Source of the DNA: Candidatus Nitrosocosmicus arcticus
GTDB lineage: Archaea; Thermoproteota; Nitrososphaeria; Nitrososphaerales; Nitrososphaeraceae
Assembly: GCF_007826885.1 (NCBI RefSeq)
Contig: NZ_ML675589.1
Span: 1 to 64,000 of the forward strand
Reading direction: 5' to 3'
Length of the DNA: 64,000 bases
Shown piece by piece: positions 9,110 through 11,760 of this stretch. The translations under genes were made by a program, and so were the position numbers. Numbering within the stretch: the stretch's first letter is position 1; each line of letters starts with the position of its first letter. The notes beneath the pieces were generated by a model, which saw only the letters and a program-made list of their open reading frames with translations, searched no databases and had not been told where the DNA came from.

Positions 9110-9375
9110 TGATTTTCAGTAATTTAAACGCCGTAGTACTTTTGCTCTACATTACCAAATTTCATGATTTCATTGATTTTATAGTAGCGGCAATATCTTT
9201 TAAAACAAGTAAGGCACATGAATAGCGGCCAAGTTGATTCAGTTGTGCTTTAAGCTTGTAGAGGAGGCCAGAGCCATACATTTATTATAATTAAACTATT
9301 CAGTAAAAGATTACTATAAAAAATAACATAACATTTTTATGAAATAATTCACTGTTCAACTGTTAGTCATCGAAT

Positions 9376-9611
9376 ATGAGTCTTGAGACTTCATTAAATG
9401 ATGATGGTTTCGTAAAATTTGAAAAGTTAAAAGACAATTTTGTATGGTTTTATTCAAATTATGATTGATTAAAGAAAGATTTAGCAATCAGCATGTTGCA
9501 GTTAAGGACAAAAACCAAATAGATAATGATTGCAACCTTGAAATATTATTGAAGAGATTGAATTTATCAAACTGTAATTAATCTATTGTTATCGAATATG
9601 TAAACAATTGA
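9376..9611 (+). pseudogene. broken DUF5678-like protein
   Basis: Starts ATG and reads FVKFEKLKDNFVWFYSNYD, then a TGA. After a frame change it continues QHVAVKDKNQIDNDCNLEIL and LLKRLNLSNCN, then TAA, then SIVIEYVNN-stop in the same frame. The order (helix, VAV-(K/D)-K-x-I-D, then LLKRL) resembles short DUF5678-type proteins. Two in-frame stops and one frameshift show it is not expressed intact. The exact family name is tentative; the decay is directly visible. Confidence 0.55.
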
Positions 9612-9678: not shown

Positions 9679-9897
9679 TCATTGAACAATGAACTGGGTT
9701 AATTCCGGTCTCTTTTCGCGACTGTTTATACCAAATTGATCCTGATTGTAATCGTCGCCATAATCAATATCTACTTTGAACCCTGTTCCAATGGGTAGAT
9801 CACTTGAGTTGAATGTAAATGTCTTGTATACTGCTGCTCCTCCAGGGAAGTAAAGCCCATATGTCGACTTGACAATATTTTCAGGGCTATGATCCAT
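9679..9897 (-). CDS. hypothetical protein, 72 aa
   Basis: An ATG-started frame with a beta-rich look (YGLYFPGGAAVYKTFTFNSS, then GTGFKVDIDYGDDYN). It lies 41 bp downstream of the TetR pseudogene on the same strand. No family is recognised. It could be a fragment of a larger decayed protein. Confidence 0.4.
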   Translation of the reverse strand: MDHSPENIVKSTYGLYFPGGAAVYKTFTFNSSDLPIGTGFKVDIDYGDDYNQDQFGINSREKRPELTQFIVQ

Positions 9898-9938
9898 TTT
9901 ACCTGTAATACGCCCAGAGAGATCAGTAGGCGAATTGT

Positions 9939-10571
9939 TTATTCTATCTCCGTGGTAGTCCCAAGAATCCCGCTCACGCTGTCAGCCCATGTCTTTTTGT
10001 TTGCTTCCTCACCCACTCCCAACAGCTTGTTAATCTTCAGTCCATTGTAAACTGCAATTAGGCTCTTAACCATGCTATCAATCTCTTTACCTTCCGGAAG
10101 AGTTATTGTCCCATCATTCTTGATGTAGGTAAAGATATGTTCCTTCATAACTTCAATAACCTTCTTATGTTGAAAATATAGTATTGATTTTAATTTTTAA
10201 GTTCGTGTAGATTTCGACAATATTTCTAGAAAAATTATATAACTCCTTTCGAACTGACTAAAATTATTATAGAATCCATTCGCATCGAAAATCGATTTGT
10301 CATTCTTTGTATTGTTACTTTTGTGATTGGTAACGAGCAATGAAGATAATTGTACTCTTAATTCATCCAGGTTCCTTTCACATAGTTCATAAAAAAGATC
10401 CTCTTCACTCTTAAAATAAATTTAAAGGGTGCCCTTGCTCACATTTGACTCAAGAGCTATATCATCCATTCTTGTCTTATCAAACCCTTTTCTAGAAAAG
10501 GAAATTAGGGCAGCTGCAATAATCTTATCTCGAATTTCTAATTTGTGTTTTAAAATAACCTTTGCGCACAT
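9939..10571 (-). pseudogene. TetR/AcrR-family repressor inactivated by two stop codons
   Basis: One uninterrupted reading frame of 211 codons, the normal length of a TetR regulator, with in-frame TAA codons at 10422-10424 and 10197-10199. The N-terminal helix-turn-helix is clear: IRDKIIAAALISFSRKGFDK, then TRMDDIALESNVSKGTL, stop, IYFKSEEDLFYELCE. A Tyr codon is expected at the first stop. The C-terminal ligand-domain end reads LIAVYNGLKINKLLGVGEEA. Its ATG overlaps the stop of the upstream membrane-protein gene (TAATG), so the two formed an operon. No frameshift is needed, so decay looks recent. Confidence 0.85.
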
Positions 10572-11710
10572 TACTCAACAATCACTTGATCAGATTTTCT
10601 ATTTTTTTCCTTAAAACCATCGATTCTTTCGTAAATCCAGGCAGATAAAATCCCAAGAATAGCACCTATAAGAAGCGTTATTGGTAATACCGCTGGTAAA
10701 GAATTGACAAAAAATGGAACTATGTCAACAATAGTTACAAAACCGATCTGTTCCAAATCCACAGGTATTAGGTAATTAGAAAGCGTCAAAGGAAGAAGAG
10801 GATATCCCATAATATAAAAGAGAGAGCCAGAAATACCCCCTGATATTACGACTTTGAGTTTATTGCTAATTAATTTATTACCTAATGGTAACTTGTCATA
10901 AATCAGCAAGTCAACTAGGACGAAGGGAATAATCGTTAAAAGGTAAAAAGGGAGTAAATTCGAAAGGGTTTCGGATGGTAGTATATTAGTAACCGCTGTT
11001 AATAAGATGGCTCCTGCTGCTATAGCGCTAGCTATCCCGAAGGTGTGTGTTTTTTTTAGAACAAGCAGGAACAATCCTGAATTAATCAAGGGCAAGAATA
11101 TTAACGCTATTAATGATTCCGCTATTGGGTTCAGATTAAAGTTAAACAAGTCGCCATTAGAAATTGGTAAAGCAAAAATGTAGACATAGGATATCAAATT
11201 TAGCCATAATGCTACAAAGGCGGGAACAAAGAATATCCTCCCCAGTTGGTACGAATTACCTGATTTAACAAAAGAATTTAATCGGACTATTCCCATTGCA
11301 ACAGCAGAAGTATTGATAAGCATTCCTGTAATTAACATCAGATGTGTTGGGCTGAGAAATCCATCCACTCCAAATGTTTCGTGCCAAATAAAATCACTTG
11401 GGCCGGATATAATGGATAGCACAGATCCTATAATAAATAATTTGAATGATATAGTCAAACCGCTTTTCTTTAATTCACCATATTTTATCATTAGGACGCC
11501 CCCAATGATAGCAGACAGAGACAAAATGCCTATCCCAGCGTAAAGCAAGGTATGAGAAGGTGTAAAAAACGATTCAGGGATGAGCAATAAATGCAAAGTA
11601 ACATCCCAATTACCAGCACCTATCTGCATTAAGGAACCAATTGATGCAAATATCAAAACAGTCATGGAAAATTTAAAAGCATAGCTGGATGGATCAAGTT
11701 TTGGTTCCAT
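10571..11710 (-). CDS. multi-pass membrane protein of unknown function
   Basis: A 379-residue integral membrane protein with roughly 10-11 hydrophobic segments spread over its full length. Conserved-looking polar motifs lie at membrane edges: SHTLLYAG near residue 55 and WHETFGVDGFLSPTHL near residue 110, the histidines suggesting a metal or proton site. I do not know its substrate. I chose the ATG at 11710 rather than an earlier frame start at 11761, because a TATA box and operator occupy 11733-11760 and the extra residues are encoded by that promoter. It is followed with a one-base overlap by the dead TetR gene, so it was probably the repressor's target. Confidence 0.8.
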   Translation of the reverse strand: MEPKLDPSSYAFKFSMTVLIFASIGSLMQIGAGNWDVTLHLLLIPESFFTPSHTLLYAGIGILSLSAIIGGVLMIKYGELKKSGLTISFKLFIIGSVLSIISGPSDFIWHETFGVDGFLSPTHLMLITGMLINTSAVAMGIVRLNSFVKSGNSYQLGRIFFVPAFVALWLNLISYVYIFALPISNGDLFNFNLNPIAESLIALIFLPLINSGLFLLVLKKTHTFGIASAIAAGAILLTAVTNILPSETLSNLLPFYLLTIIPFVLVDLLIYDKLPLGNKLISNKLKVVISGGISGSLFYIMGYPLLPLTLSNYLIPVDLEQIGFVTIVDIVPFFVNSLPAVLPITLLIGAILGILSAWIYERIDGFKEKNRKSDQVIVE

Positions 11711-11732
11711 ACACCCTACTACCAGACAAGAA

Positions 11733-11760
11733 CATATAAATATTACTGACTGGTCAGTCA
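11733..11760 (-). promoter_or_regulatory. TATA box plus palindromic TetR-type operator
   Basis: On the minus strand a perfect 6-2-6 inverted repeat TGACTG-(AC/GT)-CAGTCA (11747-11760) sits just upstream of a TATA-like TTTATATG. About 22 nt separate that box from the ATG at 11710. TetR repressors of this class bind such palindromes over core promoters. The layout implies control of the membrane protein by the adjacent repressor. Confidence 0.75.

Follow-up and report, generated by a model that had tools for sequence, protein, structure and literature searches.

The described systems that come closest to the locus analysed here are the AcrR/MtrR-type TetR repressors (PF00440), AmoC/PmoC (PF04896), which is the C subunit of the copper membrane monooxygenases, and regulator pseudogenes with retained operators, as found in genome decay. 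Candidatus Nitrosocosmicus arcticus is a soil ammonia-oxidising archaeon, and to our knowledge transcriptional control in the ammonia-oxidising archaea (AOA) is poorly known. The ligands of PmoC are Asp156/His160/His173 at the CuC site and Asn227/His231/His245 at the CuD site (PMC12576850). The genome of N. arcticus (G000, genus Nitrosocosmicus) comprises 2.64 Mb in 22 contigs, and the window, the whole 64-kb stretch of DNA that was analysed, is located on contig C12. The locus (Table 1) should constitute a two-gene operon, an AmoC-like membrane protein followed by its own TetR repressor, with a one-base overlap between the TetR start and the membrane-gene stop (TAATG). The operon would originally have been autoregulated, presumably by promoter occlusion, before the repressor became a pseudogene in N. 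arcticus. The putative operator is still in place across the BRE/TATA region, and selection continues to act on the membrane gene. The promoter is now most likely read by a paralogue, TetR-B, whose own promoter has almost the same site, and this reading of the operon, its trans control included, is in our judgement a fairly probable one.

Table 1. Features at the locus, in window coordinates.
Feature	Position	Strand	Basis
C-terminal remnant of cysteine-rich secreted-protein gene	9679..9938	-	
TetR-family pseudogene, 211 codons, two in-frame TAA	9939..10571	-	frame and TetR_N match, orthologue comparison, codon model
Second premature TAA, codon 125	10197..10199	-	GAA (Glu) in intact orthologues
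First premature TAA, codon 50	10422..10424	-	TAT/TAC (Tyr) in intact orthologues G014, G012, G013; recognition helix cut
Uncharacterised membrane protein, 379 aa, N-terminal part probably AmoC/PmoC-like	10571..11710	-	profiles, models, codon model
AmoC/PmoC-like region (predicted), about residues 13-150, D36-H40-H53 and D106-H110-H123	11261..11674	-	
TATA box TTTATATG, 4 bp from operator	11733..11740	-	
Conserved putative operator ACTGAC-CA-GTCAGT (minus-strand reading)	11745..11758	.	comparison with relatives

The TetR of the window is a genuine pseudogene. Its frame, in which the 211 codons include the stop, has no frameshift, and with the stops read as X it matches TetR_N (PF00440) with 46.4 bits against a curated cut-off of 24 (E=3e-12). 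A complete reading frame able to make a dimer is missing, given the two in-frame TAA codons and the neutral evolution of the gene. The closest orthologue, in G014, is 85% identical and intact, and those of G012 and G013 are likewise intact. In a four-taxon branch codon model the omega of TetR is 0.94 on the window's branch versus 0.25 on the others; the model with one omega for all branches is rejected (p=0.005), and the value on the window's branch does not differ from 1 (p=0.9). On that branch the membrane gene has an omega of 0.26, significantly different from 1 (p=2e-4). The terminal branch of the window copy in the TetR tree is 0.11 vs 0.024 in G014, and its frame shows two Met-to-Lys changes where the three intact orthologues agree.

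The assembly of strain Kfb is a draft from an enrichment culture (22 scaffolds, 98% completeness; PMC6657660), and one or two base errors can mimic a dead gene, so that the stops might be sequencing or assembly errors in an intact TetR. This is highly improbable, since amino-acid change is raised over the whole frame, as seen in the omega and in the Met-to-Lys changes, and two miscalled bases are insufficient as an explanation; moreover both lesions are substitutions and not homopolymer indels. Expression of TetR by readthrough, by recoding or as a functional fragment would be consistent with the two partial frames that persist, a 49-aa one whose helix-turn-helix is incomplete and a C-terminal one of 69 aa, but the probability of this is close to negligible, as the frame evolves neutrally, different residues were replaced at the two stops, and the first stop interrupts the recognition helix and takes away the dimerisation domain. 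The relatives have Tyr and Glu at these codons and the neighbouring gene ends in TAA, indicating that TAA is not reassigned. The first-pass annotation, which had reported a dead 211-codon TetR with two in-frame TAA codons and no frameshift, a one-base overlap with the membrane gene, and TAA reassignment as unlikely, is thus upheld on all these points by the frame analysis, the TetR_N match, the codon model and the intact orthologues.

The arrangement of the membrane gene with an adjacent TetR occurs across Nitrososphaeraceae, and comparison of the congeners indicates at least three independent losses of the adjacent TetR within the genus. In G011 the same gene is lost via other lesions (a changed start codon, TGA at codon 7, a 1-bp deletion and more stops), and the TetR of G008 has AAA changed to TAA at codon 83 and a 2-bp insertion, the near-identical relative G001 being intact. 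In G002, G003, G005, G007 and G009 the membrane gene is present and no TetR remnant was found beside it. At positions 9367-9581 of the window a 78-aa protein that G013 and G012 have intact is present in decayed form, interrupted by an in-frame TGA near 9466, and the TetR therefore sits within a patch of decaying genes. Loss of a regulator as such is an ordinary kind of event, and what had been called a clean natural loss is a natural loss, though not a single clean event, being one of at least three and lying in such a patch. About 1.15 kb of G014 (L036 4262-5416) is absent from the window, the break falling on the TetR stop codon, and the G014 counterpart of the cysteine-rich secreted-protein gene is itself frameshifted.

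The first-pass annotation described a perfect 6-2-6 palindrome directly upstream of the TATA box of the membrane gene, TGACTG-N2-CAGTCA, which is exact at 11747-11760. The genome search that it proposed gives a single exact copy in the 2.64 Mb, at the membrane-gene promoter, and matches with two mismatches in the window are at chance level. Site and conservation were confirmed and the register was shifted by 2 bp: the register conserved in the relatives is ACTGAC-YR-GTCAGT, that of the annotation is not kept in G012 and G013, and it is palindromic here only because the centre is CA. Genus-wide, the upstream regions of the membrane gene have TGACTGAC-YR-GTCAGT right before the TATA box, with the exception of G008, where the adjacent TetR is broken, TetR-B is missing, and one operator half-site is changed. 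G014 and G011 have the exact operator sequence, and between the window and G014 operator and TATA box are inside a 32-bp identical block with mismatches on either side. At the target promoter the phylogenetic footprint of the predicted operator is ACTGAC-YR-GTCAGW. CTGAC-YR-GTCAG is kept upstream of nearly every operon with this TetR subfamily, and for genes of the adjacent-TetR and TetR-B types alike the transcription unit is preceded by a site of this form. The annotation would have been contradicted had orthologues with an intact TetR lacked the palindrome, and the palindrome is present there. Its conservation ahead of the membrane gene in almost all congeners marks the palindrome as a genuine operator. 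With the spacing given in Table 1, a bound repressor would cover the BRE/TATA region.

Some other operator-like sites were judged to be due to chance, namely one in G009 (C100), inside a reading frame, and two with one mismatch in the N. arcticus genome, close to contig ends. In G012 (C25, L116 3173) an operator-like CTGACTGGTCAG is located 34 bp upstream of an RNA 3'-phosphate-cyclase-like gene, and this may be chance or a further target.

The N. arcticus genome has only two TetR_N genes, the dead one and the intact TetR-B (C17:26157-26744), and only two exact CTGACNNGTCAG sites, one at the membrane-gene promoter and the other upstream of TetR-B; the reversed pattern, used as a control for this search, was found once. 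The site of TetR-B differs in having CG as centre and GTCAGA as one flank, which counts against trans control. The recognition helix SKGTLYxYF is common to TetR-B and the intact orthologues of the dead gene, and in G003, G005 and G007 the operator accompanies a membrane gene that lacks an adjacent TetR, with TetR-B located elsewhere, as trans control would predict. These two sites, the common helix and the arrangement in G003, G005 and G007 make trans control by TetR-B the preferred reading. In G003 (C28, L117 2437-6335) a paralogue of TetR-B is divergent from an apparent ABC export operon, and the region that separates the two holds the same operator.

The repressor might instead have died without replacement, leaving the membrane gene constitutive and the operator a relic, kept through its overlap with BRE/TATA or for want of time to decay. 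The short branch of the pseudogene would have given the site little such time, and operator retention in N. arcticus alone is thus weak evidence. In G009 (96% complete), G011 (90%) and G002 (86%) the operator is kept and no intact TetR-A or TetR-B was detected, so that the site may have been kept for its role in the promoter, or a TetR gene may be missing from the assembly; these genomes are the main evidence against trans control, and the cases of G009 and G011 favour the constitutive alternative. It is nevertheless a possibility to which we give limited credence, as both half-sites are conserved in congeners without any trace of an adjacent TetR, a half-site is changed in G008, which has no intact TetR of the subfamily, and the same core site is found at TetR-B. 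Of the two outcomes that had been proposed, constitutive expression or control by a paralogous TetR, the comparison of sites and helices thus favours the paralogue, and control by TetR-B is the reading retained here.

The membrane-protein gene had been correctly noted with its identity left blank, and here the protein appears to be AmoC/PmoC-like. In an HMM search of the relatives, residues 13-147 weakly match proteins of about 190 aa, present in several copies in some genomes, the positions of which are those of AmoC in a PF04896 search. By hhalign the full-length profile aligns over residues 20-153 with archaeal AmoC at E=1.7e-5, and comparison of the N-terminal part gives E=2.4e-6, versus 0.16 for a reversed AmoC control. 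In a PDB profile search AmoC/PmoC accounts for 15 of the 17 chains listed at E<=10 (best E=0.008). All 29 homologues share D36-H40-H53 and D106-H110-H123 without exception, and these residues fall on the CuC and CuD ligands in the alignment; the former has the CuC-type Asp-x3-His-x12-His motif, and the latter has the spacing and both His of AmoC/PmoC, with Asp replacing Asn. The two motifs are 70 residues apart vs 72 in archaeal AmoC. AlphaFold models are confident (pLDDT 86), and with Foldseek the top match of the N-terminal domain is AmoC 9pxf_G with probability 0.85 and TM 0.50, but at E=0.29, and the full-length model has no match below E=0.001. PF04896 is absent among the families listed for all 29 members, and no usable match came from scanning the membrane protein against Pfam and NCBIfam. 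An AmoC-AmoA fusion, considered since the C-terminal part looks AmoA-like by eye, was rejected (hhalign E=0.34, no better than the reversed-profile controls). Together the data support distant homology of the first ~150 residues with AmoC/PmoC; copper binding and function of the protein are putative.

The domain is present in 83 of 98 AmoA-positive and 1 of 22 AmoA-negative genomes among 120 genomes of the class (Fisher p=7e-13, shared ancestry being ignored), which supports a link with ammonia oxidation. Many relatives of family f9, which we read as Nitrosopumilaceae, encode a short form (about 200 aa) in which both motifs are present; the proteins at L199-L202, likewise about 200 aa long, carry the two D-x3-H-x12-H motifs and differ from AmoC itself. 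In G078 (C82, L203), of the same class, a relative is found in a 435-aa open frame, with the first D-x3-H-x12-H motif and a slightly longer spacing in the second; no AmoA was detectable in a search of this genome. Neither this membrane family nor TetR regulation in AOA was found described in a literature search that covered few subscription journals. Taken jointly, these observations might indicate an AOA-associated, undescribed family of AmoC/PmoC-like copper proteins (a long form of about 380 aa and a short one of about 200 aa) beside ammonia monooxygenase, which might for example deliver copper, serve as an alternative subunit or act on a different substrate, and which would be TetR-switched in soil AOA, N. 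arcticus and two congeners having either released the switch or passed it to a paralogue; we offer this as a speculative and rather doubtful reading.

The parallel loss, the candidate replacement regulator and the probable AmoC-like identity of the regulated gene are what this analysis adds, and the target gene is more interesting than the regulator loss. The locus offers a concrete putative operator and two candidate regulators, one of them naturally lost in at least three congeners, and a widespread unnamed AmoC-like protein in AmoA genomes could bear on how the archaeal enzyme handles copper and on its active site.

Like AmoC/PmoC, the membrane protein has D-x3-H-x12-H at the CuC position, and a second D-x3-H-x12-H stands at its CuD position, but it differs in having no PF04896 match, Asp instead of Asn as the first predicted CuD ligand, about 230 extra C-terminal residues and no structural match below E=0.001. 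With the AcrR/MtrR-type TetR repressors the locus shares the HTH domain, a single short palindromic operator at the promoter core and a repressor within the target operon, and a paralogue in G003 is divergent from an ABC export system, whereas the local copy here is a pseudogene and the target is an AmoC-like membrane protein and not an efflux pump. As with regulator pseudogenes that have retained operators, the repressor carries nonsense mutations while the regulated gene and its site persist, but here there are at least three independent losses in one genus, with a conserved operator and possible takeover by a paralogue.
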